From contig FMBT01000315.1 in NCBI GenBank assembly GCA_900095095.1, positions 124,001-188,000 on the forward strand: DNA of 64,000 nt, written 5' to 3'. The notes below the pieces were generated by a model. It was not told where the DNA came from. It searched no databases and saw nothing but the letters and a program-made list of their open reading frames with translations. Position 1 is the first letter of the stretch; each line of letters starts with the position of its first letter. This DNA comes from Fragilariopsis cylindrus CCMP1102. Lineage: Eukaryota; Bacillariophyta; Bacillariophyceae; Bacillariales; Bacillariaceae. Shown here piece by piece: positions 43,615 through 64,000 of the stretch. The position numbers were made by a program, and so were the translations under genes.

Positions 43615-43920
43615 ATATTGTTTTTTGGTGTACTAAGTCCATATTGATGGTGCATCAAGGCCTTGATTGCACACACTTTTGTTATTTTGGGGATTTCAGT
43701 GTGCTTTGAAGTGCTGGGTTTTGACCCAAGACACTCCAAATATATGTATGGCTTTCTAGAACAATGGTATTATCCAATCCTTCTATAATTAAGATGGATC
43801 CTTAGCTATTTTATTTGTGATCAGCAAATCTGGTATGGTATGGGCGTGGCACTCTAGCATCTGAAATATTTTTGCAATATCCATAATGATTTTTTTTCAT
43901 CGCGCTCGACTCATTTGACT

Positions 43921-43954
43921 AAATGAAACTCATATCTGAGTTTCATTTTTTTTT
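43921..43954 (+). repeat. terminal inverted repeat, left, copy 1
   Basis: Core palindrome at 43923-43946 followed by eight T. It is the reverse complement of 51409-51442, and similarity then fades over about 10 bp ('agatcaacgc' against 'gaaatcgacg'). Confidence 0.85.
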
Positions 43955-44488
43955 AGATCAACGCTTCTTTTTTTTCAAATTGAAGCAATCTCACGTAGGA
44001 TTCTACAGGACTTTCAGTACTACAGATCCAATTTATGACAATTTAAAGGGGGTAGTACACAAATTTTCATTATTATGTGATTTTTTTTCATGTGTCGTCG
44101 ATCGGAAAATTTCGATCCAGGACGGACAAAGAAAAATAACTTGACAATGGCACATACCGTAATCCTTCTTCCCAGGTCTACTCAACAATATTTGAGGTCA
44201 TGCCGATGCTAATGGGAAGCGAAATGGCGCTCAAAGCAATTGAAATGGAGAATAATGATGGACCGGTATGTTTGATTTTGCACCTCTCCCTCCATGGTTC
44301 CATCGTTCCATCGTTCCATCATTCCTCTCTCCTATCATTAAAACTGGTACTGTCGCCGTCATCGTCATTGACGTCGTCATCAAAACGGCTTGTAGTAGTA
44401 GCAGAAGAAGAAGCGACATCTGAAGAAGAAGAAGTGATACTGCGATATCATCACAACGACAACGACGACAACAACAACAACAACAACG

Positions 44489-47400
44489 ATGGATGATTCG
44501 TACGATCCTACCTTCCTTAATGCTGATGTTGATGTGGACTTTGACTTTCTTCGGGCACAGACTCAATATCAGGATGATATTAATAACTGTTGGATCTCAG
44601 AAGGACAAGCAGAAGAAATAACAGATCCTAGTGATTTTCCTTGTGCAGCTGATTGGAAAGACGATGCACCAGATATTATTTCTAATACAGTAGTAACAGT
44701 GGATAAGGGCCGTATTCATATATGGAAACAAGGAAAGACAGAAATCCGAATCATCCGTACTGTATGGGGAGAAGATCATCCTACATTTGATACACTTGCT
44801 ACTAGAATATTTGGACCTAGGAGCAAGTTATTTCATTTATTTGAAGATGAATTATCTTTATCCTATGAAAAATACTGCAGATTTCTTGCTACTTTCTTTG
44901 CCGCATCAAGTAGAAGTTCACCTGCCTCACGACTACTAGCGGACAATCGATTTGATTCTACTGGCATGATGGAAAAGATGGAATATCATAGACTCATCAG
45001 GCAGATAGAAGAACACAGGAGTGGTGATGAATCATTGTGGATGCAGATAGAAGAATTATTTAATTCACTTACTAAAAAGCACTTTCTTTCAGAAAGAGGT
45101 GAAGAAGAACTTTACATCGCATTGGATGACGACAAGCACCATTTCAATTATTCTAAACACGCTGATACGTATGGTTTACAGAGAATGCGTCACATCAAAA
45201 CCAATAGAATGGGCCATACAGCACATACTGCAGGTTTAAGTGCAACAGGAATGCCTCTCTGTGTTATGTTTCAGAGAGAAGATGAAGCGCAATCACAAGT
45301 GTATGAAAGGATGTGTAAGAAGATGTTTGGTGGTCGAACTGGTAATGGTGATCCAAATCTTCAAGGTACGTTGTTTTGTTTGCTTTGGTTATTGTTCTGA
45401 TTCGATCCGATCCGATCCGACGCGAATTGTACTGTACTGTACTGTACTATATCGATTCGGATCGATTCGTTCCGTTCGGATTCGATTCGATTCGATTTGA
45501 TTTGATTTGATTTGATTTTTATTGGTCAATAATTATTATGTAATTGTTCCTTGCCGAAAACCATTGGCCTGAAATGATAATGTAAATTTTCTTTACCGAA
45601 AATTATTGGTCCAGAATTATTATGTAAATGATCTTTACCGAAAACCTTTGGTAAAAAATAATTATGTAAATGTTCTTTGCCGAAAACCTTTGGTCAAGAA
45701 TCATTATGTAAATTCTCTTTACCAAAAATTGATTGTCAAGATTTAATATGTCAATGTTCTTTGACGACCGGTCATTTTTCTTGACTGATTTCGTTGCTTA
45801 TATATTTATTTTTTAACTTACAGTACATTGTTTCTTTTTTTAATCTAATAAAATATAGGAATCACTTTTGGTTCCGATCGAGGATACTGGACTCCTTCTC
45901 TTCTATTTAAGTTTCTTCTACAGTGTGGAGCCGATGTGGTTGGTACTGTAGCTAGATGCTTCTGGTATCCCTTTACATTCACAAAAGGGAAGGTGACATC
46001 GATACCAGAAGTTGACACACACAATAGAACTGAAATTAGGATGAAAGGAGCAAAGGATGTATTCTACAAGACATTGAAATGGGGTAGTGCTAAGATCCGA
46101 GCAACATGTTACAGAACTGGCACTGGCACTGCTGTTTCACTTGCTATGTCAACACTTCATCATGGTCCTTTATTTGATTTGAATCTATCATTTCCCAAGG
46201 ATCACAAGTGGTATTTTAATCGAACCATAACACAAGATGAACGTAATAGCAAAGCATTTCCTGTTGTGGCTGGATCATCAGATCATTATGATATCATTAA
46301 AGCTCTACCAATCCGTCCTTTGACTCTTGTACAAGGTGATACTGCTTGGTTCATCATGAGACAATTTTCATTAACATCATCTACTGTTGATAAATGTATT
46401 TCTTCAAGATGTAGAGAGATAACACAAGACCATGCTCTCCGGGAATCATACGAGACTGTTCTACATGCTGTTGATCGAATGAATCTATTACCAAGGGGAT
46501 CTGATTACAATGATGCAAGAAGAAATAATAATAGTAGTAATAATAATAATACTACTACAACCGGCGAGCAAGAGGAAGGACTGCATTGGATGATATTATT
46601 GGTGGTGACAGTGGTAGTGATAGTAGTGACGATGAAGCAGAACTACAACCACCCATGGATTGGGCATCGAACTGGATCCGACGCGTCAATGACGGCGAAG
46701 ATGGTCTATTCAGAGATAGACTCAACTCTGATAATATGGATCATTCTATTATTAGAGGGATCATTGATAAGCATGATAATGGCAAATCAACAGGAAGCAT
46801 ATCAATTTTGAAGAAGAAACTCATAGCATGGTCTGAATTGCCTTCCTATCTCTATAGGAAGTACTACTTTTGTACAAGTCAACAGCTCAAGGATCGAATA
46901 TTAGAATTGGATGGTCAAGCAACAGTAGCAGGGAAGAAAAAGGATGCTTTGGTTGATCTGGTTGTGCGTTGTGAAAGGAAAAGAATCGGTCGCAATACAA
47001 CTTTAAATAATAATCAAGATCCATACGATGGAGAAGATGACGATGATGATGAAGATACTGTTGATCCTGTATTACTAGATATATTTAAAGCATCGAAAAT
47101 GAAGCCTTTAAAGGATGAAGCCAAGGCCTATTGCAGACAAGGACACCTTCTAGAACGTCCATTCTTGGAACAGTTCCACCAGCACAGTAAGGAAGGACTT
47201 ACACGTGGTTACAAGTCAATGCTATTCATGAAACACCAGTTGGTACGTTGTTCTATTTGCTTTGTTCTGATTTGATTTGATTTGATTTGATTTGATTCGT
47301 TTGATGATTGATTCGTTTTGATTGATTGATTCGTTTTGATTGATCCGATTTGATTGATCCGATTTGATTGATCCGATTTGATTGATCCGATTCAATTATT

Positions 47401-49135
47401 TTTGCACAGATTTAGTCCTAATTTCGATCAGATTTAGTCCTTCCTTGTCTGATTTCGCACAGATTTAGTCCTTCCTTGTCTGGACCAGTCAATTTCCGGA
47501 CTGATTTAGTTGCTAATGTTTCGTAATCGACTATATATTGTCTCACTTTTATCTATCTATCTATTTTCTAATCACTTTGAATACAACCAGTTGAATCGAC
47601 ATCAATCACAGGTGCATTGGATTCATCAGATGCTGAACTTATCTACAAGAAAGAAGATCATGCTGCTAATGATAGTGGTAGTGGTAGTGATACCGATGAT
47701 GATGATGATATTGCTATTGAAACTATGCCAATTGAAATCAAAGCTCGTGTTGCTCATTCCACTTTCTATTCTGAAAGATATTTACTTGAAGCTAATAGTG
47801 GCTTATCTGCATTCGAAAGTGGAGAACCTGTCTATGTTGAAATCGATGCAGAGGGCGGAGAGCTCCACAAGTGGATTCCAAAGCACAAGGAAAGTTTTCA
47901 ATTACTTCACCATGTTGCTATTCGTGATGCAAGGAAGGGTCTCTTTCTTGTTGGGAACAAGACGAAATTGATGTTTGGTGTGTTTGTTACATACAGTGAT
48001 AATCTTATTGCTTCCTACCGGGCTCTGTTGAAAGATCTTTTTGATCGTGCTTTGAAGCCGTTCTATGAAGACAGTATACAACTACCACAAGTGAAGATTG
48101 AGAAGATTTTACAAGCAAAGGAAATGAAGAAACTTAATATGACCTATCATTCTTTTCAAACTGACTTCTATATTTGGAGGCAGTTACGTATCAAGAAAGC
48201 ATTACACTACCAGTACCACCTTGTAATCGGATCCTTCCTTACAATCATTCAGTGTGGAATAACTTGAAGGGTGCTTCCGATACAGCCACAAAGCTGATGT
48301 GGAACTGTCAGATCAAGTTGCTTCTAGTGGTCGGTCTCAAGTGGTTGCTTTTGCTAAATTCTTACAGCTCTATTCTATTCTATTACATAGAGAATATCAA
48401 ATTGCTACAGCCAAGCCCGACTTGAACTTCTATGCATCTCTTCATCATTTCCGGAATACAAGAAATCAAAACTATCCTTTCCACAAGACAGTTGATAGGC
48501 TTTCTGTTTGGTTCATCAAGAATGCAGATGATGCAGTGGCTGCTGCTGCGGCTGCTGTACCTCCTACTCCTCCTACCACTGCACTAACTATCGATACTAC
48601 TGGAAGCAACGGTCCTCTTGTTCAATCACCTCCTCCTCGAGTACAACGGAGTAACAGAAGCTCATTCCAAGCGATTAGAAACTATACCACAATCACTGGT
48701 GGTACTCCTGGCAAAGGACGAGCCATAGATCCCAAGAACAAGACAGCTGAATGGGAAGCAGATCAAGATCGTCTGAAGAATTGTAATGGTGTTCTATATT
48801 ATACCAAAAGAAATAAGTGCTGTATTTGTGGTGTTCAATCTAATTTTGTATGTGTTATATGCAAAAGATGGTATTGTTGTAAGAACCAAGATGAAAAGAT
48901 AAATAATATGATCTTAGCTAACGATTCTAGAGTTGCATTTTTGGGTGGGGAACGACCGCCTAGTGAATTAGTAATGAATGGTGTAGCGGCTGATGGAAGT
49001 ACAAAAGAGTTCTGTACTGTTGAAAATGGATGCTTTCATATGCATCACCGGCAATCAATTTCAAGAAGAATTAACATCCTTGATGGATCACATTCTACCC
49101 CGGCACTAGTGAGTCCGATGGCAGTAGAAGAATAA
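44489..49135 (+). CDS. gene A: DDE transposase with SAP-like, YqaJ-like nuclease and zinc modules, three exons, copy 1
   Basis: Exons 44489-45365, 45859-47242 and 47612-49135, with GTACGT donors, AG acceptors and split Gly codons at both junctions. Full-length product would be 1262 residues. Residues 1 to about 480: transposase with acidic triad candidates in 'LYIALDDDKHHF' (Asp near 213), 'TFGSDRGYWTPS' (Asp 299) and 'VQGDTAWFIMRQFSLTSS' (Asp 453), and 'VVGTVARCFWYPFTF'. About 600-660: SAP-like ('LKDRILELDGQATV...ALVDLVV'). About 730-900: PD-(D/E)XK nuclease of YqaJ type, with 'GHLLERPFLEQF', 'VGALDSSDAELIY', 'PIEIKAR' (Glu 796, Lys 798) and 'ESFQLLHHVAIRDARKG'. About 1165-1240: 'CCICGVQSNFVCVICKRWYC' plus later Cys/His. 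This copy has an intact exon 1, but one-base losses near 46559, 47220, 48206 and 48317 break exons 2-3. Confidence 0.82.
45531..45780. repeat. 42-bp tandem array (six units) in intron 1 of gene A, copy 1
   Basis: Units follow the pattern 'aattattatgtaaatgttct' + 'ttgccgaaaacctttggtcaag', at about 45531, 45573, 45614, 45656, 45698 and 45740, ending in 'gacgaccggtcatttttc'. Preceded by gattcgatttgatttg-type pentanucleotide runs. The same array recurs after the gene (49333-49581). Confidence 0.9.
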
Positions 49136-49332
49136 AAGTATTCGTATTCGTATACGTGTTTGTATTACTACTGCTATTTTAATTTGTAGTATGTAAATAA
49201 GTAAATGATAATAATAGTATTTATATTATAAACTTTATCTCTTTTGTTATTATACTAGTATTAGATCTATGATTCGTTCCGATCTGATCCGATCCGATTC
49301 GATTTGATTTGATTTGATTTTTATTGGTCAAT

Positions 49333-49581
49333 AATTATTATGTAATTGTTCCTTGCCGAAAACCATTGGCCTGAAATGGTAATGTAAATTTTCTTTACCG
49401 AAAATTAATGGTCCAGAATTATTATGTAAATGATCTTTACCGAAAACCTTTGGTAAAAAATAATTATGTAAATGTTCTTTGCCGAAAACCTTGGTCAAGA
49501 ATCATTATGTAAATTCTCTTTACCAAAAATTGATTGTCAAGATTTAATATGTCAACGTTCTTTGACGACCGGTCATTTTTC
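49333..49581. repeat. 42-bp tandem array downstream of gene A, copy 1
   Basis: Same six-unit array as in intron 1, same orientation, including the preceding gatttgatttg run and the 'gacgaccggtcattttt' end. Only a few bases differ (for example 'aatggtaatg' for 'aatgataatg'). Confidence 0.9.
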
Positions 49582-49803
49582 TACGATTGTATTACTACTG
49601 CTATTAGAAGAATAAACAACGTATCGTATGTTACGATTGTATTTGTATTACTACTGCTATTTGTATTTGTATTTGTATTTGTATTTGTAGTACGTAAATA
49701 GATAATAGTAATAGTATTTATAACGTTATCTTTGTTATTCTAGTGTTAGATTTATGATTCGATTTGATTCGATTCAATTCATCAATGCAATTCATTTTGA
49801 TTT

Positions 49804-50170
49804 TCATTCCGTCCACAAATTCATCATACCGATGATAGTGTTACTGTCGTCTAATGAAATAAAAAAGGTAAATACTTCATCAGCATGAATAACAGAAGGG
49901 AATACAGTAGCTGTAGAAGATGTGACAGTCATCCTCCCCATCCTGTGATTGTTATTCCTGCTTGTGATCGGCTTGAATCTGATGTTAACACCAACACCAG
50001 TAAGTGAAATGACTAATTCTGGGAAGGGAACTGATGGCCACTTAATATCATCATAAACTAGGAGCCTCTTCAAGACGGAATCAATTGCAATACTACCATT
50101 AAATCCTAAACCAGGCCGACTAGATCTCTCCCACATCGGACACTGCATTCTAATTCGATTGGTCGGTCAT
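49804..50170 (-). CDS. gene B: small element-encoded protein, unknown, copy 1
   Basis: In copy 2 the frame is intact: 121 residues beginning 'MTDNRIRMQCPMWERSS'. Copy 1 has an extra G near 50161 that shifts the first codons, so only the part from the internal Met at 50148 is in frame. The sequence alternates hydrophobic beta-like stretches ('FPELVISLTGVGVNIRFKPI', 'DEVFTFFISLDDSNTIIGMM'). No motif recognised. It is convergent with gene A and divergent from gene C. Confidence 0.55.
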
Positions 50171-50289
50171 GGTGGTGGTACTTGTTTGTTATAATTTGTT
50201 GTTGCTGTTGTTGCTTTGTTTATTTTCTATTGATAATTTATGAAGATAACAATAATAATAATAATACGTCGTCATGCTTGTATTGTATT

Positions 50290-50619
50290 GTTTTCTATTT
50301 ATAATTTGTTAGGATAACGTTACTGTAGTAATAATAATAAGAAGAAGAATAATAAAACGAGTTGAGTTGAGTTGCCAACTTTCTTAAGAGAGGTCTAACA
50401 GACAGATTCTCCACAAGGAGAGAAGCATTGCTAGAATAATAATTTATTGTTCTAGCAAGGCTTCTCTCCTTGTGGAGATCGGTCTGTTGGTCCTCTCTTA
50501 AGAAAGTCGGCGTCGACACAACGACTCAACTTGTTGTACTCACTTATTATTATTATTATTATCATTCTTATTATTACTACAGTAACATTATCCTCATTAA
50601 TTATAAATAGAAAATAAAC
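50290..50619. repeat. large imperfect hairpin between genes B and C, copy 1
   Basis: Two arms of about 150-160 bp face each other around about 50444. The inner part is nearly perfect: 'actttcttaagagagg', 'ccacaaggagagaagc' and 'tgctagaa' on the left mirror 'ttctagca', 'gcttctctccttgtgg' and 'cctctcttaagaaagt' on the right. Outer blocks also match inverted: 'ttctatttataat', 'ttactgtagtaataataa' and 'gagttgagt' on the left. It occupies the shared upstream region of B and C. Confidence 0.85.
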
Positions 50620-50644
50620 AAAAGCAACAACAACAACAACAAAA

Positions 50645-51085
50645 ATGAAGACATCATTTTCTGTAAAAGTAATCATCGAATCAAATGAAGTTGGTGATGG
50701 TGGTGCTGCTGCTGCCGAAGCTAATGGTGGTGGTACGACAGTCCTATTGTTGATTGTTTCTTGCTCAATGCATGGAAAAAATGATCAATGATGCAATCAA
50801 GAAGTATGTCCAAGTCAAGGGTGCTCGTACCATTGAAGAGAAGAAGAAGAAGATATCTCCAGTCCTCTTCCACAACGTCGAGTTCCTTTAGATGCTGATG
50901 CTGATGCGGATGCGGATGATGATTCTACTGTCGATCCAGACGCTTCGAATGACAATGACGATGAAGATGAAGATGAAGATGAGGTCGGTGATCTACCACC
51001 TAACGTCGAGATTGACAATGAGTTTGAGGAAGACTACCAGCTCTCCCAGAAGATGGGATTGATGAGTCTTCGTCGTCGCGATTAA
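50645..51085 (+). CDS. gene C: small acidic element-encoded protein, copy 1
   Basis: Begins 'MKTSFSVKVIIESNEVGDGG' just after the hairpin and ends at TAA 51083-51085 with 'YQLSQKMGLMSLRRRD'. Combining the copies gives one frame of about 147 residues; copy 1 has losses near 50738, 50746 and 50840 that break it. The middle is a Glu tract and Asp/Ala repeats ('DADADADADDD', 'DNDDEDEDEDE'). No fold recognised; a short helix-like 'MINDAIKKYVQVKGARTIEE' is the only ordered-looking part. It could be an acidic partner of the transposase (inference). Confidence 0.55.
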
Positions 51086-51408
51086 GATAGATAGAGACTA
51101 CCACCATTGCCACTATTAATAATAATAATAATAATAATAATCAACTCTTTCTAAAATACTTTTTAACTGAAATTCGATCGAAATGAAGGGCATGGGAAAG
51201 TATTTGTTTTCATCATTCATAATCCAACCCATTGCTTCTACTAGAATTAGAAATAGAACATCTATCTTGATTGCTCAAATCACCCCAAATCGACATCCCC
51301 TTGGTGTTTTCATCAGTTTGTTGTCTTCGACGACGAACAATATGTTGTTCCTTATCTTTCCTTGCTTTTTATGTGTCAAAAATTTACATCTTGTTCGTCG
51401 TCGATTTC

Positions 51409-51442
51409 AAAAAAAAATGAAACTCAGATATGAGTTTCATTT
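51409..51442 (-). repeat. terminal inverted repeat, right, copy 1
   Basis: Eight A, then the palindromic core at 51417-51440: the exact reverse complement of the left terminal core. Confidence 0.85.
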
Positions 51443-52639
51443 TTTTGAAACGTGGATAAAACTCATATTTGAGTTTTAAAAATCACCATGGATATGTGTA
51501 TTTTGGGCCAATTTGTGTTTATTCTATTGTTCTCTGCCCCATCACACCACCAATATGGCTAATGTTCCAGGTATTGTTAGTGTATTTTGATCATATGCAT
51601 ATATGGAAGGTATCTGGATGTTCAAACCACGACCCAATTGCTTTTTTTGATGTTGTGCTGGCCTATTTCTAAATGCCACTTTTTGGCATGTTGGCCAGAA
51701 CATGATGTTGAGGGTTGCAGATGACAACACCTGCCAAGTCAGGTGCACAAGCATCCACATAGTGTACCAGAATATTTTGTGTGCCTCCTACAACTTTTCT
51801 TTTCCTGTGGTTTGTGACGCACTTGCTGTAATGTATCAAACCATCATCATCAAAAACAACTTGCGCAACTAAAAATGACTAGTTCCACGCAAAGAATTAA
51901 TCAAGCCTTTCAATAGTCACCCGGCAGAAAAATTCAAAAGAATGGTATAACAGACCAAAGTGGTACTAGTGATACGCTATACAATTGCATTTCCCTGTCC
52001 TAATATTGTTGGGATTCTGCCAGGAGCGTGGTTACAACCTTATAATCTAGTCCCAAAATTAATCCAATTCCCCAGTCACATTGAATTGGTATGCTGTTTT
52101 TGCTTTTGTTGATAGTTCCAGGATGTCCAATTCTGTTGTTGCTACTGATGTCAATTGATTGATTGTTTGCACACACTATCTCTATTGTGTAGTGAGTATT
52201 TTTGTCATCATTTTAATTTGGGGAGAAGTGCCCTGTTGCTGTTGAATCTGCTGCTGCTATGTCTGTTGTGATGGTTGAATTTCCTAGTAATTATTTTTTC
52301 TAGTAGTAGTGTTGGTGTATACAATGTTTTGGTTGCTCAAGGAATGACATTGTGCTTTGATGTTGATTATAGTTTCTTTACTCTTTTTTAAACTATTTCT
52401 ACTATTTCAATTATTGTGTCATGCCTCCCGCCTCATCTTGGTCTGGGATGTAACTTATGTATGGATCCATTCAATTTACAGTGTTTGTTACCGTTTTCTT
52501 CCTGTTGGTGGTTCTCTGTATCCTTGATGTGTCTACAAGTCATACTGGTATGTCTAACATAGAATTCATATGTCCAACAGTAGTTGTCATTATACCATCT
52601 TTGAGTCACTCATACGCCATATTTTCCATTGCTGATGTA
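51443..52639. other. right flank of the transposon inside the tandem unit, no gene
   Basis: AT- and T-rich sequence, with the secondary palindrome at 51457-51476. No protein family recognised in any frame. Confidence 0.45.
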
Positions 52640-53580
52640 GCTTTTTCCTCCTTGTTTATTGTTGCTACCATATCCTCCTTCTCCACTTTCAAGTCAATTG
52701 ATTTTGTCTGTTGGTGCTTGATTGTTGCCACTGTTGTGTCCTGTATACAGGTGATTGTTGTGGCTGTTGTGTCATTAAGACTGCATGTAATAATTGTGCT
52801 TCTTGTTGTTTTTCTAATTGTTCAATTTTGTCATTATTTGCTTCTACTGTTGCCTGTGCAAGAATTTGTTGGTTCTCTTTGTTTTGACTGACCCCTTCTT
52901 TTACTGCATTAGCAATACCAATTGCTTTCAATGTACCTGCATCATCACTTCTTTTCTTTGATTGCTTTTTTGTGTAATGGGACTTGAATTTCTTCCAAAT
53001 TGATGTCAGATTTTAGCTTGAGGTGTTCTTTGAATTGATTTAATCACTACCAGATGAGGGTTGGTTCATCAATGATTTCATTTAATGATTCAAGAGTATT
53101 ACACGTTCCGTGTACTGCTGCTTTGTAATAAACCTGGGACTCTTCATTTGGATCAGTACTATACTGTGTGGTGTTTTGGATTTCTGCTATAACTACATCC
53201 TCTGATTGTACATATTCCAATAGTATAGGTGTTTAATAACAGTTCAATTGCTGTGTATCCAACTACTAGTCTCCATTGTCATCCTGTTTTTTGTATTTCA
53301 AGGAAGTGGTATTCTTTGAATGCGCGCATGGCCATTTTCTTTGTTGCTGCTTGTGCCAGTTTGTACCGGTTCCATGTTTGTTGTTCTGCCCTATGGACTT
53401 CTAGCTTTAAGTGTGTTGTCCCATTGTGTGCTCCTAGGTTGATAGGTGGGGCAATTGGTGCTGTTATTGTCTCTTTATGAGCAAACCCCTTTTGGTTCCA
53501 TTGAATGTATGATTGTCCATGGTCATGAGTGTGGGGATCGACGCATACCCTTGTTTGCAATTGCCTACTTCTTTCGCCCC
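52640..53580 (-). mobile_element. retroelement gag-like remnant, copy 1
   Basis: Minus-strand fragments resemble gag of diatom copia elements: 'TTHLKLEVHRAEQQTWNRYK' and 'ATKKMAMRAFKEYHFLEIQ' near 53290-53410, then 'VGYTAIELLLNTYTIGI' near 53200-53265, and a Gln/Glu-rich coiled segment 'QATVEANNDKIEQLEKQQEA' near 52790-52850. Frames are broken and the identification rests on general resemblance. Confidence 0.4.
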
Positions 53581-54887
53581 TTCCTTTAGTATTAGTAATA
53601 CTAATGAGAGTTGGTGTGCGCCTTTAGCTACTGGCAAGTAATGGTGGCTTTAGTCCCGGCAGGATCTCATCAATACCGCAAGGATGGAATGTATGATGAT
53701 AAGGTAGCACCTACCAGTATGAACCACCTGAATGATTTGTTTGCACAACCTGTTGTACACAAATATCTCTATTATTTACCAATTTAAATGAAATTTATTT
53801 AATGTACTTCTATAGCATTCCTTTTCTTCAACACAAATAACAACAGCACATCAATCAATCCATCCATTCAATCATTATCAATGCATCAAATGTTGTTTAC
53901 ATTATTATGCTTCAAAAAGTAGAGGGGAATTAATTGTTGCAAAAAAATTGCTCCTGTTGAATCCAACCCAATAGTGAAAGTTGTTAGACAGAGAATCATA
54001 GAATGTTAGGGGTATATTGTTTTTTGGTGTACTAAGTCCATATTGATGGTGCATCAAGGCCTTGATTGCACACACTTTTGTTATTTTGGGGATTTCAGTG
54101 TGCTTTGAAGTGCTGGGTTTTGACCCAAGACACTCCAAATATATGTATGGCTTTCTAGAACAATGGTATTATCCAATCCTTCTATAATTAAGATGGATCC
54201 TTAGCTATTTTATTTGTGATCAGCAAATCTGGTATGGTATGGGCGTGGCACTCTAGCATCTGAAATATTTTTGCAATATCCATAATGATTTTTTTTCATC
54301 GCGCTCGACTCATTTGACTAAATGAAACTCATATCTGAGTTTCATTTTTTTTTAGATCAACGCTTCTTTTTTTTCAAATTGAAGCAATCTCACGTAGGAT
54401 TCTACAGGACTTTCAGTACTACAGATCCAATTTATGACAATTTAAAGGGGGTAGTACACAAATTTTCATTATTATGTGATTTTTTTTCATGTGTCGTCGA
54501 TCGGAAAATTTCGATCCAGGACGGACAAAGAAAAATAACTTGACAATGGCACATACCGTAATCCTTCTTCCCAGGTCTACTCAACAATATTTGAGGGTCA
54601 TGCCGATGCTAATGGAAGCGAAATGGCGCTCAAAGCAATTGAAATGGAGAATAATGATGGACCGGTATGTTTGATTTTGCACCTCTCCCTCCATGGTTCC
54701 ATCGTTCCATCGTTCCATCATTCCTCTCTCCTATCATTAAAACTGGTACTGTCGCCGTCATCGTCATTGACGTCGTCATCAAAACGGCTTGTAGTAGTAG
54801 CAGAAGAAGAAGCGACATCTGAAGAAGAAGAAGTGATACTGCGATATCATCACAACGACAACGACGACAACAACAACAACAACAACG

Positions 54888-57800
54888 ATGGATGATTCGT
54901 ACGATCCTACCTTCCTTAATGCTGATGTTGATGTGGACTTTGACTTTCTTCGGGCACAGACTCAATATCAGGATGATATTAATAACTGTTGGATCTCAGA
55001 AGGACAAGCAGAAGAAATAACAGATCCTAGTGATTTCCTTGTGCAGCTGATTGGAAAGACGATGCACCAGATATTATTTCTAATACAGTAGTAACAGTGG
55101 ATAAGGGCCGTATTCATATATGGAAACAAGGAAAGACAGAAATCCGAATCATCCGTACTGTATGGGGAGAAGATCATCCTACATTTGATACACTTGCTAC
55201 TAGAATATTTGGACCTAGGAGCAAGTTATTTCATTTATTTGAAGATGAATTATCTTTATCCTATGAAAAATACTGCAGATTTCTTGCTACTTTCTTTGCC
55301 GCATCAAGTAGAAGTTCACCTGCCTCACGACTACTAGCGGACAATCGATTTGATTCTACTGGCATGATGGAAAAGATGGAATATCATAGACTCATCAGGC
55401 AGATAGAAGAACACAGGAGTGGTGATGAATCATTGTGGATGCAGATAGAAGAATTATTTAATTCACTTACTAAAAAGCACTTTCTTTCAGAAAGAGGTGA
55501 AGAAGAACTTTACATCGCATTGGATGACGACAAGCACCATTTCAATTATTCTAAACACGCTGATACGTATGGTTTACAGAGAATGCGTCACATCAAAACC
55601 AATAGAATGGGCCATACAGCACATACTGCAGGTTTAAGTGCAACAGGAATGCCTCTCTGTGTTATGTTTCAGAGAGAAGATGAAGCGCAATCACAAGTGT
55701 ATGAAAGGATGTGTAAGAAGATGTTTGGTGGTCGAACTGGTAATGGTGATCCAAATCTTCAAGGTACGTTGTTTTGTTTGCTTTGGTTATTGTTCTGATT
55801 CGATCCGATCCGATCCGACGCGAATTGTACTGTACTGTACTGTACTATATCGATTCGGATCGATTCGTTCCGTTCGGATTCGATTCGATTCGATTTGATT
55901 TGATTTGATTTGATTTTTATTGGTCAATAATTATTATGTAATTGTTCCTTGCCGAAAACCATTGGCCTGAAATGATAATGTAAATTTTCTTTACCGAAAA
56001 TTATTGGTCCAGAATTATTATGTAAATGATCTTTACCGAAAACCTTTGGTAAAAAATAATTATGTAAATGTTCTTTGCCGAAAACCTTTGGTCAAGAATC
56101 ATTATGTAAATTCTCTTTACCAAAAATTGATTGTCAAGATTTAATATGTCAATGTTCTTTGACGACCGGTCATTTTTCTTGACTGATTTCGTTGCTTATA
56201 TATTTATTTTTTAACTTACAGTACATTGTTTCTTTTTTTAATCTAATAAAATATAGGAATCACTTTTGGTTCCGATCGAGGATACTGGACTCCTTCTCTT
56301 CTATTTAAGTTTCTTCTACAGTGTGGAGCCGATGTGGTTGGTACTGTAGCTAGATGCTTCTGGTATCCCTTTACATTCACAAAAGGGAAGGTGACATCGA
56401 TACCAGAAGTTGACACACACAATAGAACTGAAATTAGGATGAAAGGAGCAAAGGATGTATTCTACAAGACATTGAAATGGGGTAGTGCTAAGATCCGAGC
56501 AACATGTTACAGAACTGGCACTGGCACTGCTGTTTCACTTGCTATGTCAACACTTCATCATGGTCCTTTATTTGATTTGAATCTATCATTTCCCAAGGAT
56601 CACAAGTGGTATTTTAATCGAACCATAACACAAGATGAACGTAATAGCAAAGCATTTCCTGTTGTGGCTGGATCATCAGATCATTATGATATCATTAAAG
56701 CTCTACCAATCCGTCCTTTGACTCTTGTACAAGGTGATACTGCTTGGTTCATCATGAGACAATTTTCATTAACATCATCTACTGTTGATAAATGTATTTC
56801 TTCAAGATGTAGAGAGATAACACAAGACCATGCTCTCCGGGAATCATACGAGACTGTTCTACATGCTGTTGATCGAATGAATCTATTACCAAGGGGATCT
56901 GATTACAATGATGCAAGAAGAAATAATAATAGTAGTAATAATAATAATACTACTACAAACCGGCGAGCAAGAGGAAGGACTGCATTGGATGATATTATTG
57001 GTGGTGACAGTGGTAGTGATAGTAGTGACGATGAAGCAGAACTACAACCACCCATGGATTGGGCATCGAACTGGATCCGACGCGTCAATGACGGCGAAGA
57101 TGGTCTATTCAGAGATAGACTCAACTCTGATAATATGGATCATTCTATTATTAGAGGGATCATTGATAAGCATGATAATGGCAAATCAACAGGAAGCATA
57201 TCAATTTTGAAGAAGAAACTCATAGCATGGTCTGAATTGCCTTCCTATCTCTATAGGAAGTACTACTTTTGTACAAGTCAACAGCTCAAGGATCGAATAT
57301 TAGAATTGGATGGTCAAGCAACAGTAGCAGGGAAGAAAAAGGATGCTTTGGTTGATCTGGTTGTGCGTTGTGAAAGGAAAAGAATCGGTCGCAATACAAC
57401 TTTAAATAATAATCAAGATCCATACGATGGAGAAGATGACGATGATGATGAAGATACTGTTGATCCTGTATTACTAGATATATTTAAAGCATCGAAAATG
57501 AAGCCTTTAAAGGATGAAGCCAAGGCCTATTGCAGACAAGGACACCTTCTAGAACGTCCATTCTTGGAACAGTTCCACCAGCACAGTAAGGAAGGACTTA
57601 CACGTGGTTACAAGTCAATTGCTATTCATGAAACACCAGTTGGTACGTTGTTCTATTTGCTTTGTTCTGATTTGATTTGATTTGATTTGATTTGATTCGT
57701 TTTGATTGATTGATTCGTTTTGATTGATTGATTCGTTTTGATTGATCCGATTTGATTGATCCGATTTGATTGATCCGATTTGATTGATCCGATTCAATTA

Positions 57801-59539
57801 TTTTTGCACAGATTTAGTCCTAATTTCGATCAGATTTAGTCCTTCCTTGTCTGATTTCGCACAGATTTAGTCCTTCCTTGTCTGGACCAGTCAATTTCCG
57901 GACTGATTTAGTTGCTAATGTTTCGTAATCGACTATATATTGTCTCACTTTTATCTATCTATCTATTTTCTAATCACTTTGAATACAACCAGTTGAATCG
58001 ACATCAATCACAGGTGCATTGGATTCATCAGATGCTGAACTTATCTACAAGAAAGAAGATCATGCTGCTAATGATAGTGGTAGTGGTAGTGATACCGATG
58101 ATGATGATGATATTGCTATTGAAACTATGCCAATTGAAATCAAAGCTCGTGTTGCTCATTCCACTTTCTATTCTGAAAGATATTTACTTGAAGCTAATAG
58201 TGGCTTATCTGCATTCGAAAGTGGAGAACCTGTCTATGTTGAAATCGATGCAGAGGGCGGAGAGCTCCACAAGTGGATTCCAAAGCACAAGGAAAGTTTT
58301 CAATTACTTCACCATGTTGCTATTCGTGATGCAAGGAAGGGTCTCTTTCTTGTTGGGAACAAGACGAAATTGATGTTTGGTGTGTTTGTTACATACAGTG
58401 ATAATCTTATTGCTTCCTACCGGGCTCTGTTGAAAGATCTTTTTGATCGTGCTTTGAAGCCGTTCTATGAAGACAGTATACAACTACCACAAGTGAAGAT
58501 TGAGAAGATTTTACAAGCAAAGGAAATGAAGAAACTTAATATGACCTATCATTCTTTTCAAACTGACTTCTATATTTGGAGGCAGTTACGTATCAAGAAA
58601 GCATTACCACTACCAGTACCACCTTGTAATCGGATCCTTCCTTACAATCATTCAGTGTGGAATAACTTGAAGGGTGCTTCCGATACAGCCACAAAGCTGA
58701 TGTGGAACTGTCAGATCAAGTTTGCTTCTAGTGGTCGGTCTCAAGTGGTTGCTTTTGCTAAATTCTTACAGCTCTATTCTATTCTATTACATAGAGAATA
58801 TCAAATTGCTACAGCCAAGCCCGACTTGAACTTCTATGCATCTCTTCATCATTTCCGGAATACAAGAAATCAAAACTATCCTTTCCACAAGACAGTTGAT
58901 AGGCTTTCTGTTTGGTTCATCAAGAATGCAGATGATGCAGTGGCTGCTGCTGCGGCTGCTGTACCTCCTACTCCTCCTACCACTGCACTAACTATCGATA
59001 CTACTGGAAGCAACGGTCCTCTTGTTCAATCACCTCCTCCTCGAGTACAACGGAGTAACAGAAGCTCATTCCAAGCGATTAGAAACTATACCACAATCAC
59101 TGGTGGTACTCCTGGCAAAGGACGAGCCATAGATCCCAAGAACAAGACAGCTGAATGGGAAGCAGATCAAGATCGTCTGAAGAATTGTAATGGTGTTCTA
59201 TATTATACCAAAAGAAATAAGTGCTGTATTTGTGGTGTTCAATCTAATTTTGTATGTGTTATATGCAAAAGATGGTATTGTTGTAAGAACCAAGATGAAA
59301 AGATAAATAATATGATCTTAGCTAACGATTCTAGAGTTGCATTTTTGGGTGGGGAACGACCGCCTAGTGAATTAGTAATGAATGGTGTAGCGGCTGATGG
59401 AAGTACAAAAGAGTTCTGTACTGTTGAAAATGGATGCTTTCATATGCATCACCGGCAATCAATTTCAAGAAGAATTAACATCCTTGATGGATCACATTCT
59501 ACCCCGGCACTAGTGAGTCCGATGGCAGTAGAAGAATAA
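54888..59539 (+). CDS. gene A: DDE transposase with SAP-like, YqaJ-like nuclease and zinc modules, copy 2
   Basis: Exons 54888-55763, 56257-57642 and 58014-59539. Exon 2 (1386 bp) and exon 3 (1526 bp) are uninterrupted and their lengths fit the split-codon phases exactly, which confirms the gene model. Exon 1 has one missing T at about 55036 ('gatttcc' against 'gattttcc' in copy 1), shifting the frame after 'AEEITDPSDF'. Domain content as in copy 1. The linker between transposase and nuclease is Asn/Asp-rich ('RRNNNSSNNNN', 'DDDDDEDTVDP') and an Ala-rich/Pro-rich stretch precedes the zinc module. With the transposase N-terminus from copy 1 and the rest from copy 2 both halves are open, so the element may be active if the indels are errors. 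Confidence 0.82.
55928..56178. repeat. 42-bp tandem array in intron 1 of gene A, copy 2
   Basis: Same six-unit array as 45531-45780. Confidence 0.9.
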
Positions 59540-59736
59540 AAGTATTCGTATTCGTATACGTGTTTGTATTACTACTGCTATTTTAATTTGTAGTATGTAA
59601 ATAAGTAAATGATAATAATAGTATTTATATTATAAACTTTATCTCTTTTGTTATTATACTAGTATTAGATCTATGATTCGTTCCGATCTGATCCGATCCG
59701 ATTCGATTTGATTTGATTTGATTTTTATTGGTCAAT

Positions 59737-59985
59737 AATTATTATGTAATTGTTCCTTGCCGAAAACCATTGGCCTGAAATGGTAATGTAAATTTTCTTT
59801 ACCGAAAATTAATGGTCCAGAATTATTATGTAAATATCTTTACCGAAAACCTTTGGTAAAAAATAATTATGTAAATGTTCTTTGCCGAAAACCTTTGGTC
59901 AAGAATCATTATGTAAATTCTCTTTACCAAAAATTGATTGTCAAGATTTAATATGTCAACGTTCTTTGACGACCGGTCATTTTTC
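59737..59985. repeat. 42-bp tandem array downstream of gene A, copy 2
   Basis: Same array as 49333-49581, with one-base indels (for example 'aaatatct' for 'aaatgatct'). Confidence 0.9.
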
Positions 59986-60206
59986 TACGATTGTATTACT
60001 ACTGCTATTAGAAGAATAAAACAACGTATCGTATGTTACGATTGTATTTGTATTACTACTGCTATTTGTATTTGTATTTGTATTTGTATTTGTAGTACGT
60101 AAATAGATAATATAATAGTATTTATAACGTTATCTTTGTTATTCTAGTGTAGATTTATGATTCGATTTGATTCGATTCAATTCATCAATGCAATTCATTT
60201 TGATTT

Positions 60207-60572
60207 TCATTCCGTCCACAAATTCATCATACCGATGATAGTGTTACTGTCGTCTAATGAAATAAAAAAGGTAAATACTTCATCAGCATGAATAACAGAA
60301 GGGAATACAGTAGCTGTAGAAGATGTGACAGTCATCCTCCCCATCCTGTGATTGTTATTCCTGCTTGTGATCGGCTTGAATCTGATGTTAACACCAACAC
60401 CAGTAAGTGAAATGACTAATTCTGGGAAGGGAACTGATGGCCACTTAATATCATCATAAACTAGGAGCCTCTTCAAGACGGAATCAATTGCAATACTACC
60501 ATTAAATCCTAAACCAGGCCGACTAGATCTCTCCCACATCGGACACTGCATTCTAATTCGATTGTCGGTCAT
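60207..60572 (-). CDS. gene B: small element-encoded protein, unknown, copy 2
   Basis: Intact frame of 121 residues, starting 'MTDNRIRMQCPMWERSSRPG' at ATG 60572, about 120 bp from the outer edge of the hairpin, and ending 'IIGMMNLWTE'. No family recognised. Preservation in both copies, apart from one indel at the start in copy 1, says little about selection because the copies are nearly identical. Confidence 0.6.
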   Translation of the reverse strand: MTDNRIRMQCPMWERSSRPGLGFNGSIAIDSVLKRLLVYDDIKWPSVPFPELVISLTGVGVNIRFKPITSRNNNHRMGRMTVTSSTATVFPSVIHADEVFTFFISLDDSNTIIGMMNLWTE

Positions 60573-60691
60573 GGTGGTGGTACTTGTTTGTTATAATTTG
60601 TTGTTGCTGTTGTTGCTTTGTTTATTTTCTATTGATAATTTATGAAGATAACAATAATAATAATAATACGTCGTCATGCTTGTATTGTATT

Positions 60692-61021
60692 GTTTTCTAT
60701 TTATAATTTGTTAGGATAACGTTACTGTAGTAATAATAATAAGAAGAAGAATAATAAAACGAGTTGAGTTGAGTTGCCAACTTTCTTAAGAGAGGTCTAA
60801 CAGACAGATTCTCCACAAGGAGAGAAGCATTGCTAGAATAATAATTTATTGTTCTAGCAAGGCTTCTCTCCTTGTGGAGAATCGGTCTGTTGGTCCTCTC
60901 TTAAGAAAGTCGGCGTCGACACAACGACTCAACTTGTGTACTCACTTATTATTATTATTATTATCATTCTTATTATTACTACAGTAACATTATCCTCATT
61001 AATTATAAATAGAAAATAAAC
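60692..61021. repeat. large imperfect hairpin between genes B and C, copy 2
   Basis: Same structure as 50290-50619. Here the right arm reads 'cttgtggagaatcggtc', which pairs better with the left arm than the copy 1 version lacking one A. Confidence 0.85.
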
Positions 61022-61046
61022 AAAAGCAACAACAACAACAACAAAA

Positions 61047-61491
61047 ATGAAGACATCATTTTCTGTAAAAGTAATCATCGAATCAAATGAAGTTGGTGAT
61101 GGTGGTGCTGCTGCTGCCGAAGCTAATGGTGGTGGTAACGACAGTCCTATTGTTGATTTGTTTCTTGCTCAATGCATGGAAAAAAATGATCAATGATGCA
61201 ATCAAGAAGTATGTCCAAGTCAAGGGTGCTCGTACCATTGAAGAAGAAGAAGAAGAAGATATCTCCAGTCCTCTTCCACAACGTCGAGTTCCTTTAGATG
61301 CTGATGCTGATGCGGATGCGGATGATGATTCTACTGTCGATCCAGACGCTTCGAATGACAATGACGATGAAGATGAAGATGAAGATGAGGTCGGTGATCT
61401 ACCACCTAACGTCGAGATTGACAATGAGTTTGAGGAAGACTACCAGCTCTCCCAGAAGATGGGATTGATGAGTCTTCGTCGTCGCGATTAA
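61047..61491 (+). CDS. gene C: small acidic element-encoded protein, copy 2
   Basis: Starts 'MKTSFSVKVI' and stays open through 'NDSPIVDLFLAQCMEK', then shifts because of an extra A in an A-run near 61185. The downstream part is open in the other frame to TAA at 61489-61491 ('RTIEEEEEEDISSPLPQRRV' onward). See copy 1 for composition. Confidence 0.55.
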
Positions 61492-61850
61492 GATAGATAG
61501 AGACTACCACCATTGCCACTATTAATAATAATAATAATAATAATAATCAACTCTTTCTAAAATACTTTTTAAACTGAAATTCGATCGAAATGAAGGGGCA
61601 TGGGAAAGTATTTGTTTTCATCATTCATAATCCAACCCATTGCTTCTACTAGAATTAGAAATAGAACATCTATCTTGATTGCTCAAATCACCCCAAATCG
61701 ACATCCCCTTGGTGTTTTCATCAGTTTGTTGTCTTCGACGACGAACAATATGTTGTTCCTTATCTTTCCTTGCTTTTTATGTGTCAAAAATTTACATCTT
61801 GTTCGTCGTCGATTTCAAAAAAAAATGAAACTCAGATATGAGTTTCATTT

Positions 61851-63049
61851 TTTTGAAACGTGGATAAAACTCATATTTGAGTTTTAAAAATCACCATGGA
61901 TATGTGTATTTTGGGCCAATTTGTGTTTATTCTATTGTTCTCTGCCCCATCACACCACCAATATGGCTAATGTTCCAGGTATTGTTAGTGTATTTTGATC
62001 ATATGCATATATGGAAGGTATCTGGATGTTCAAACCACGACCCAATTGCTTTTTTGATGTTGTGCTGGCCTATTTCTAAATGCCACTTTTGGCATGTTGG
62101 CCAGAACATGATGTTGAGGGTTGCAGATGACAACACCTGCCAAGTCAGGTGCACAAGCATCCACATAGTGTACCAGAATATTTTGGTGTGCCTCCTACAA
62201 CTTTTCTTTTCCTGTGGTTTGTGACGCACTTGCTGTAATGTATCAAACCATCATCATCAAAAACAACTTGCGCAACTAAAAAGACTAGTTCCACGCAAAG
62301 AATTAATCAAGCCTTTCAATAGGTCACCCGGCAGAAAAATTCAAAAGAATGGTATAACAGACCAAAGTGGTACTAGTGATACGCTATACAATTGCATTTC
62401 CCTGTCCTAATATTGTTGGGATTCTGCCAGGAGCGTGGTTACAACCTTATAATCTAGTCCCAAAATTAATCCAATTCCCCAGTCACATTGAATTGGTATG
62501 CTGTTTTTGCTTTTGTTGATAGTTCCAGGATGTCCAATTCTGTTGTTGCTACTGATGTCAATTGATTGATTGTTTGCACACACTATCTCTATTGTGTAGT
62601 GAGTATTTTTGTCATCATTTTAATTTGGGGGAGAAGTGCCCTGTTGCTGTTGAATCTGCTGCTGCTATGTCTGTTGTGATGGTTGAATTTCCTAGTAATT
62701 ATTTTTTCTAGTAGTAGTGTTGGTGTATACAATGTTTTGTTGCTCAAGGAATGACATTGTGCTTTGATGTTGATTATAGTTTCTTTACTCTTTTTAAACT
62801 ATTTCTACTATTTCAATTATTGTGTCATGCCTCCCGCCTCATCTTGGTCTGGGATGTAACTTATGTATGGATCCATTCAATTTACAGTGTTTGTTACCGT
62901 TTTCTTCCTGTTGGTGTTCTCTGTATCCTTGATGTGTCTACAAGTCATACTGGTATGTCTAACATAGAATTCATATGTCCAACAGTAGTTGTCATTATAC
63001 CATCTTTGAGTCACTCATACGCCATATTTCCATTGCTGATGTAGCTTTT
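61851..63049. other. right flank of transposon copy 2, no gene
   Basis: Same sequence as 51443-52639 apart from one-base indels. No gene recognised. Confidence 0.45.
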
Positions 63050-63985
63050 TCCTCCTTGTTTATTGTTGCTACCATATCCTCCTTCTCCACTTTCAAGTCA
63101 ATTGATTTTGTCTGTTGGTGCTTTGATTGTTGCCACTGTTGTGTCCTGTATACAGTGATTGTTGTGGCTGTTGTGTCATTAAGACTGCATGTAATAATTG
63201 TGCTTCTTGTTGTTTTTCTAATTGTTCAATTTTGTCATTATTTGCTTCTACTGTTGCCTGTGCAAGAATTTGTTGGTTCTCTTTGTTTTGACTGACCCCT
63301 TCTTTTACTGCATTAGCAATACCAATTGCTTTCAATGTACCTGCATCATCACTTCTTTTCTTTGATTGCTTTTTTGTGTAATGGGACTTGAATTTCTTCC
63401 AAATTGATGTCAGATTTTAGCTTGAGGTGTTCTTTGAATTGATTTAATCACTACCAGATGAGGGTTGGTTCATCAATGATTTCATTTAATGATTCAAGAG
63501 TATTACACGTTCCGTGTACTGCTGCTTTGTAATAAACCTGGGACTCTTCATTTGGATCAGTACTATACTGTGTGTGTTTTGGATTTCTGCTATAACTACA
63601 TCCTCTGATTGTACATATTCCAATAGTATGGTGTTTAATAACAGTTCAATTGCTGTGTATCCAACTACCTAGTCTCCATTGTCATCCTGTTTTTTGTATT
63701 TCAAGGAAGTGGTATTCTTTGAATGCGCGCATGGCCATTTTCTTTGTTGCTTGCTTGTGCCAGTTTGTACCGGTTCCATGTTTTGTTGTCTGCCCTATGG
63801 ACTTCTAGCTTTAAGTGTGTTGTCCCATTGTGTGCTCCTAGGTTGATAGGTGGGGCAATTGGTGCTGTTATTGTCTCTTTATGAGCAAACCCCTTTTGTT
63901 CCATTGAATGTATGATTGTCCATGGTCATGAGTGTGGGGATCGACGCATACCCTTGTTTGCAATTGCCTACTTCTTTCGCCCCTT
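63050..63985 (-). mobile_element. retroelement gag-like remnant, copy 2
   Basis: Second copy of the remnant described at 52640-53580, with the same peptide fragments ('TTHLKLEVHRA', 'KTWNRYKLAQA', 'VEANNDKIEQLEKQQEAQLL') and extra indels. Confidence 0.4.
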
Positions 63986-64000
63986 CCTTTAGTATTAGTA

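Follow-up and report, generated by a model that had tools for sequence, protein, structure and literature searches.

A stretch of 64,000 nucleotides of Fragilariopsis cylindrus CCMP1102 (contig FMBT01000315.1, positions 124,001 to 188,000 of the forward strand; hereafter the window, whose coordinates are used unless a contig is named) contains a gene that sits in a genuine terminal inverted repeat (TIR) DNA transposon of ~7.6 kb, with CC...GG ends and a 4-bp ATAT target duplication. The gene is real, as shown by independent copies in the genome that was searched (67.9 Mb in 818 contigs, the window lying on contig C72). On balance, the element is probably an autonomous TIR transposon whose one large spliced protein is a piggyBac-like DDE transposase fused to a lambda-exonuclease/YqaJ-type PD-(D/E)XK nuclease; within this explanation, the DDE assignment, the nesting of the domains, the nuclease fold, and all of the biochemistry are what we infer. 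The family is apparently a new lineage, which has moved and which carries a nuclease-transposase fusion.

Among independent copies, the left limit of the alignment is ATATCCATAATGATTTTT and the right limit lies near AAAAATCAYCATGGATAT, and the terminal pattern ATATCCATRRTGATTTTT occurs genome-wide at 33 exact and 13 one-mismatch places, vs. one place for the reversed control. The five pairs of terminal patterns that were fetched are miniature inverted-repeat transposable elements (MITEs) of 218–221 bp, and a sixth was recognized by eye on C341. In long copies, each of the 10 ends that could be read has ATAT outside CC...GG (both ends on C72, C742, C240, and C375 and the right ends on C80 and C640); these copies were found by coding similarity and the end expression itself contained ATAT, with 7 of the 10 ends also visible in alignments made without the expression. 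The flanks of a MITE on C253, joined by a single ATAT, form a 96-base sequence that is present 96/96 at C679 and C360 (empty sites). Similarly, a MITE on C648 is inserted in a repeat, for which the best empty-site match spans 1–106 at C401 with 96% identity (41 rows, with 40 of 255 candidates scored). The single ATAT in the empty sites establishes that the duplication is ATAT, 4 bp in length, and that the family has moved. A search for an empty site or allele of the C742 copy gave none.

The letters of the palindromes in the subterminal inverted repeats (Table 1) vary among copies (ACTCATATCTGAGT, AACCGAATACGGTT, ATTCTCATATATGAGAAT, and AACCACCGGTGGTT) and are near-palindromic throughout; by eye, the left and right palindromes are alike within C72, C742, C375, and C80, and not within C240. 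The dyad symmetry seems to be kept while the letters change. A shortened relative at C108:134500-143500 aligns with the beginning of exon 1 and with the element's right end, and has no match to the part between them.

An earlier reading of the window, made from the sequence only, had described three exons with matching split codons that give one chain of 1262 residues. Such a chain exists, with split codons that match and an actual count of 1269 residues, but its exons stem from two tandem copies (Table 1). The window holds two tandem units of ~10.4 kb that are 99.6% identical, the span 44489-59539 covers both, and exon 1 belongs to copy 1, exons 2 and 3 to copy 2, coordinates which indicate that exons had been joined across the two copies. 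Two more units lie to the right of the window, at C72:189289 and C72:199674, and each of the four consists of a 7.6-kb element and 2.8 kb of flank; the four arose as a segmental tandem duplication and not by four insertions, or else reflect an assembly effect. None of the four copies is open throughout, their differences being small insertions and deletions, and the indels that break the frame may be assembly noise. In both window copies, a block of 309 bp, whose repeats are spaced by 42 bases, lies in intron 1 (45473-45781 in copy 1) and again 3' of the gene (49275-49582 in copy 1) with 96.8% identity.

Contigs C742 and C80 each carry the complete three-exon chain at one locus (1258 and 1255 aa, with 90 and 88% protein identity to the window chain, respectively), with GT-AG introns and phases as in the window chain. 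Across the three chains, the two introns measure 493, 528, and 406 and 350, 279, and 715 bases, and identity is 0.35–0.76 in introns vs. 0.89–0.90 in exon 1, which represented the exons in this comparison. Direct translation of C742 gives in-frame stops in both introns, so that splicing is needed (the open-frame listings for this contig disagree, with 1062 and 944 vs. 475 and 529, and direct translation was relied upon). For the three pairs of chains, the ratio of nonsynonymous to synonymous substitution rates (dN/dS; NG86) comes to 0.20–0.23 overall and, by region, 0.23–0.30 in exon 1, 0.11–0.14 in residues 200–500, 0.22–0.47 in 500–585, 0.24–0.31 in 585–700, 0.11–0.17 in 700–900, 0.07–0.12 in 900–1060, 0.26–0.43 in 1060–1160, and 0.10–0.33 in 1160–1269, the maximum among these eight regions being 0.47. 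Because the C742 and C80 chains are independent, share splice sites, diverge in their introns, and have stops in the introns of C742, one spliced chain is the best reading, and the earlier proposal that nuclease and transposase occur in one chain is borne out by two single-locus genes, with the transposase as the putative partner. It is highly improbable that the fusion is an artefact of annotation or assembly (two genes, or chimaeric exons), as the chimaeric window chain and the frame breaks in all four C72 copies might suggest, since C742 and C80 supply whole chains from one locus each, their splice sites are conserved, and dN/dS stays under 0.5 in all of the regions compared. Among the other copies, C375 and C240 carry damage, and the match to C640 begins only in the later part of exon 2; a degenerate weak relative on C760 (E 1.5e-4, 30% identity, six stops) was not used.

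The assignment of the second enzyme to the lambda-exonuclease/YqaJ type is supported by an ordered signature, not by a profile. In a comparison set of 14 phage lambda-exonuclease/YqaJ proteins (lambda and 13 picked from 60 listed of 296 records), the motif Q-x4-W-x3-R-x3-h-T-x-[ST] is followed by G-x3-E-x6-[YF] and then by h-E-h-K in all 14, and the same order is found in three of the three element proteins. In the window chain, these motifs are QGDTAWFIMRQFSLTSS at 451 (lambda: QGDDAWHKLRLGVITAS), GHLLERPFLEQF at 721 (G-x3-E-x6-F), and IEIK at 802, and the first of them arose in none of 20,000 shuffles. A hidden Markov model (HMM) built from the 14 proteins gave 9.6 bits for residues 437–500 and 6.6 for the cut-out domain, the best of 200 shuffles of the cut-out domain reaching 4.8. 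The first two motifs are 253 residues apart in the chain, vs. 40–88 in the phage proteins, and the intervening stretch contains acidic linkers and the "SAP-like" part. With the signature at 451, Asp453 is the D of QGD and the nuclease would begin near residue 446. The sequence-only reading had listed Asp213, Asp299, and Asp453 as DDE candidates, a numbering that is correct; Asp453 was rejected as a catalytic residue of the transposase because it lies within the N-terminal signature of the nuclease. Likewise, the elements that it had named as a PD-(D/E)XK core ("GALDSSDAEL," "PIEIKAR," and "FQLLHHVA") are present, and the nuclease carries the YqaJ/lambda-exonuclease signature, but the domain appears to start near 446, not 730. 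The SAP-like segment that it had proposed is unproven: residues 560–700 gave no Pfam SAP match at E up to 10, and the SAP regular expression is unmatched in all three element proteins. Two contigs also carry a distinct gene whose YqaJ domain passes the PF09588 cut-off (C72:402292-403453 and C175:37816-38814); it is apparently a host gene, as judged from open frames, and was rejected as part of the element.

The DDE part looks piggyBac-like from its motifs. PiggyBac is described as having Asp346 followed by GTVRxNKRxIP, then PxxxxxxYxxxxGGVDxxD, which contains Asp447, and a CxxC-CxxC module at the C-terminus (PMC2533014, PMC8086355, PMC7351741). The window chain has a comparable first block, DRGYWTPSLLFKFLLQCGADVVGTVARCFWYP, at 299 (matched in 135 of 20,000 shuffles), a comparable second block, PYNHSVWNNLKGASDTAT, at 971–988 (144 of 20,000), and the pattern CxxC-x7-CxxC-x4-C as CCICGVQSNFVCVICKRWYC at 1165 (1 of 20,000), the last being found in three of three proteins, with the remaining ligands of the module assigned by eye; the Cys-rich C-terminus noted earlier is thus present. 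A looser first block that drops the aromatic residue is matched in 1,086 of 20,000 shuffles, and a looser second block, matched in 4,309 of 20,000, also fits FPVVAGSSDHYD at 426. The genome has ordinary piggyBac relatives as well, with 61 matches to PF13843 (DDE_Tnp_1_7) at an E of 1 or lower, of which 56 pass the cut-off and none is a copy of the element. One of these proteins, L061 (C63:46000-50000), is an ordinary piggyBac-type frame of 938 aa that, judged by eye, appears to have SAP-like sequence ahead of the DDE domain (Pfam SAP gave no match), and L062 represents another genomic type with divergent blocks.

Several results weigh against the explanation favored here. All motif expressions, those of the nuclease included, were written after the sequence had been seen, the nuclease match having first been noticed by eye. 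The profile searches that the earlier reading had proposed as a check found neither family, as neither PF09588 (YqaJ), with the insert removed too, nor any DDE profile, including PF13843, with the nuclease or insert cut out too, was listed at E up to 10, where HMMER filters drop most matches above E about 0.1; the positive controls gave E 2.7e-30 for lambda exonuclease vs. PF09588 and E 6e-22 for L061 vs. PF13843. PHROGs returned one "endonuclease" family, at E 0.16, in one of three members. The HMM of the 14 YqaJ proteins scored the full chains at 4.0 (window), 2.7 (C742), and 2.1 bits (C80), below some shuffles, and HHalign to YqaJ gave 18.8, where 60 shuffles had a mean of 14.4 and a maximum of 20.1. 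A single-sequence AlphaFold2 model of exon 3 alone had a predicted local distance difference test (pLDDT) score of 35, and PDB sequence searches returned only Rtc1 (E 0.0023, for residues 598–695) and weaker unrelated chains. Five pairwise tests against genomic piggyBac proteins did not rise above shuffles, and an HH comparison of the DDE segment with genomic piggyBac was no better than shuffles. Finally, the target is ATAT (a single ATAT in the empty sites), not the TTAA of piggyBac.

Within the fusion, the third catalytic Asp may be Asp985, downstream of the nuclease, or Asp434, and the choice decides the architecture: with Asp985 the nuclease lies inside the DDE core, and with Asp434 it follows the core. 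The nested arrangement, in which the nuclease (~446–915) would lie between Asp299 and Asp985 of the core and would itself contain, between its first two motifs, an insert of ~170–210 residues, the whole forming a new ATAT-targeting piggyBac-like lineage, is proposed tentatively, at somewhat under an even chance. There is also a substantial, though lesser than even, chance that the two enzymes stand in line, with Asp434 (in GSSDHYD) as the third Asp just before the nuclease. The 135-residue spacing from Asp299 to Asp434 is near the 128 of L061, and the loose block fits at 426, where, as in piggyBac, another Asp stands at the third position after the first; yet 971–985 is the one place that fits the stricter block (P...aromatic...[GA][GA]xD), C80 departs by one residue in the Gly-Asp spacing, and Asp434 is only ~15 residues from the nuclease. 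If the nested arrangement is true, the nuclease would occupy the place of piggyBac's own insertion domain, which is described as including V414 and L416 between Asp346 and Asp447 (PMC7351741), and one polypeptide would hold two nested nucleases.

Two further alternatives concern the identity of the transposase. It is unlikely that the N-terminal part is no DDE transposase at all and that the YqaJ-type nuclease is the working enzyme, movement being due to a 121-aa open reading frame (ORF2) or to another element in trans. The failure of profiles to detect a DDE domain, the failed comparisons with genomic piggyBac, and the two further conserved frames in the element all suit this view, but the piggyBac-like blocks stand in canonical order, dN/dS is low in residues 200–500, and the TIRs, the 4-bp duplication, and the MITEs fit a DDE mechanism. 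More doubtful still is the view that the element belongs to some other DDE superfamily, most of all to Kolobok (KolobokE type), and has drifted in its ends and target, in which case the nuclease fusion would already be described. KolobokE is reported to have a DDD/E transposase with a lambda-exonuclease-like PD-(D/E)XK nuclease downstream, and Kolobok elements are described as usually making 4-bp duplications, as present in diatoms, and as including at least one lineage (KolobokP) without strong TTAA preference (PMC9587614). The pairing of enzymes and the 4-bp duplication are shared; the target here is ATAT and not TTAA, a preference that is not universal in Kolobok. However, once ATAT is removed, the termini here are CC...GG, whereas those described for Kolobok are RR...YY, and in none of the three proteins is there a C/DxxH signature, or a CxxC or CxxH pair, between Asp299 and Asp985. 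This test presumes that Asp299 is the second catalytic residue; the only conserved [CD]xxH, DDKH at 214–217, precedes Asp299 and would be relevant only under another placement of the triad. Membership of Kolobok was rejected on these termini and the missing signature, and the family is set apart from KolobokE by description.

In the proposed working of the piggyBac-like fusion protein, the DDE part would cut at the CC...GG ends and join them to ATAT targets. PiggyBac ends are described as being released via hairpins on the 4-nt flank, the complementary overhangs then resealing (PMC7351741); because ATAT is self-complementary like TTAA, the same route would be open here, and the 4-bp duplication could allow the donor site to be closed without a scar, as in piggyBac. 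The palindromic subterminal repeats may serve as binding sites for the C-terminal Cys module. The nuclease would work on broken DNA, most likely by 5' strand resection at the donor break, which could lead to repair from the sister or homologue and so restore the donor copy; alternatively, it might trim ends or make the second-strand cut.

Table 1. Features of the tandem transposon copies in the window (positions within the 64,000 nucleotides; a dot marks features without strand).
Feature	Positions	Strand	Remarks
First tandem unit	43615..53597	+	second unit 54014-64000 (window edge); two further units rightward on C72
Left ATAT, target-site duplication, copy 1	43877..43880	.	single ATAT in empty sites of related MITEs
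Transposon copy 1, ~7.6 kb, termini CCATAATGATTTTT...AAAAATCACCATGG	43881..51491	+	alignment limits of independent copies; terminal pattern
Left subterminal inverted repeat, near-perfect 28-bp palindrome	43921..43954	+	100% complementary to 51409-51442; stem 43921-43948
Exon 1, copy 1	44489..45365	+	residues 1-292 and one base; open
Exon 2, copy 1	45859..47242	+	two bases shorter than copy 2; frame broken
Exon 3, copy 1	47591..49135	+	two bases shorter than copy 2; frame broken
Right subterminal inverted repeat	51409..51442	-	complementary to left repeat
Right ATAT, target-site duplication, copy 1	51492..51495	.	terminal pattern; ends of long copies
Transposon copy 2, second 10.4-kb unit	54280..61899	+	ATAT at 54276-54279 and 61900-61903
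Exon 1, copy 2	54888..55763	+	one base shorter than copy 1; frame broken
Exon 2, copy 2	56257..57642	+	open; residues 293-754: candidate Asp299 block, putative nuclease N-terminal signature (451-467), putative nuclease motif I (Glu725)
Exon 3, copy 2	57993..59539	+	open; residues 755-1269: candidate Asp765/768, Glu803-x-Lys805, Gln858, Asp985 block, Cys/His module 1165-1241
Second conserved gene, 121 aa	60207..60572 (copy 1: open 49804-50166)	-	similar frames in C80, C240, C742, C375 (C375 in three pieces)
Third, acidic open frame	61075..61491 (copy 1: up to 51085)	+	101-residue query matches 94-101 residues in C80, C240, C742, C375

Two further frames accompany the large gene (Table 1). The 121-aa gene has a dN/dS of 0.23–0.52 over six pairs (window, C80, C240, and C742) and no Pfam match, and the third frame is low-complexity, which makes its matches in other copies weak evidence. 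As a separate observation on the assembly, the silicon-transporter profile PF03842 has 27 matches in the genome (best E 1.1e-226), which mark it as that of a diatom, and the near-equal matches on the contig pairs C268/C581, C90/C331, and C401/C648 suggest that both haplotypes are partly present.

Relatives of the element were found neither in viral contigs, by protein and degenerate DNA pattern, nor in phages, with exon 3 as query at E up to 10. Among the papers listed, titles and the openings of abstracts on piggyBac, YqaJ, and diatom transposons held no description of such an element, subscription journals and Repbase being outside the scope of this search. The idea of a fusion has precedent; the points that are new, and still unproven, are the nested arrangement and the identity as a piggyBac-like element that targets ATAT. 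DNA transposons that are not related to one another (ISL2EU and KolobokE) carry lambda-exonuclease-type nucleases, whose job is unclear, and the role of the extra ORFs of PHIS elements is described as unclear (PMC4482050). A covalent fusion makes the role of the nuclease in excision, donor-site repair, or copy number testable in one protein, and TTAA could be usefully contrasted with the ATAT target of a transposase that is piggyBac-like.

Compared with known systems, the element resembles piggyBac as described in its 4-bp palindromic A/T target duplication, a candidate Asp...GT...P block, a candidate GxxD block, a C-terminal Cys/His module, and a subterminal palindromic repeat (PMC7351741, PMC2533014), as well as in termini that start with CC (PMC4273485, PMC2872659). 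The subterminal palindromes resemble in kind the palindromic repeat reported to be bound by the piggyBac C-terminal domain, and in a piggyBac-like element of a moth, ATAT is reported as a rare variant of the TTAA target (2 of 21 sites; PMC4273485). The element differs from piggyBac in having a YqaJ-type nuclease in the chain and in showing no detected profile or pairwise similarity. To lambda exonuclease and YqaJ (PF09588), it is linked by the ordered Q-x4-W-x3-R...T-x-S, G-x3-E-x6-[YF], and E-x-K, from which it departs in its wider motif spacing, in falling below Pfam detection, and in being fused in a transposon protein. ISL2EU, of the PHIS superfamily, is likewise a transposon with a YqaJ-type nuclease, which is described as a separate ORF beside a DDE/HTH/THAP transposase (PMC4482050, PMC9179366), in agreement with what the earlier reading had said of it, whereas the element described here has one spliced chain (C742 and C80) and no THAP profile match. 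The pairing of a transposase with a lambda-type nuclease in jumping DNA is known in outline elsewhere; the diatom family that apparently shows it here is another one, which has yet to be classified.

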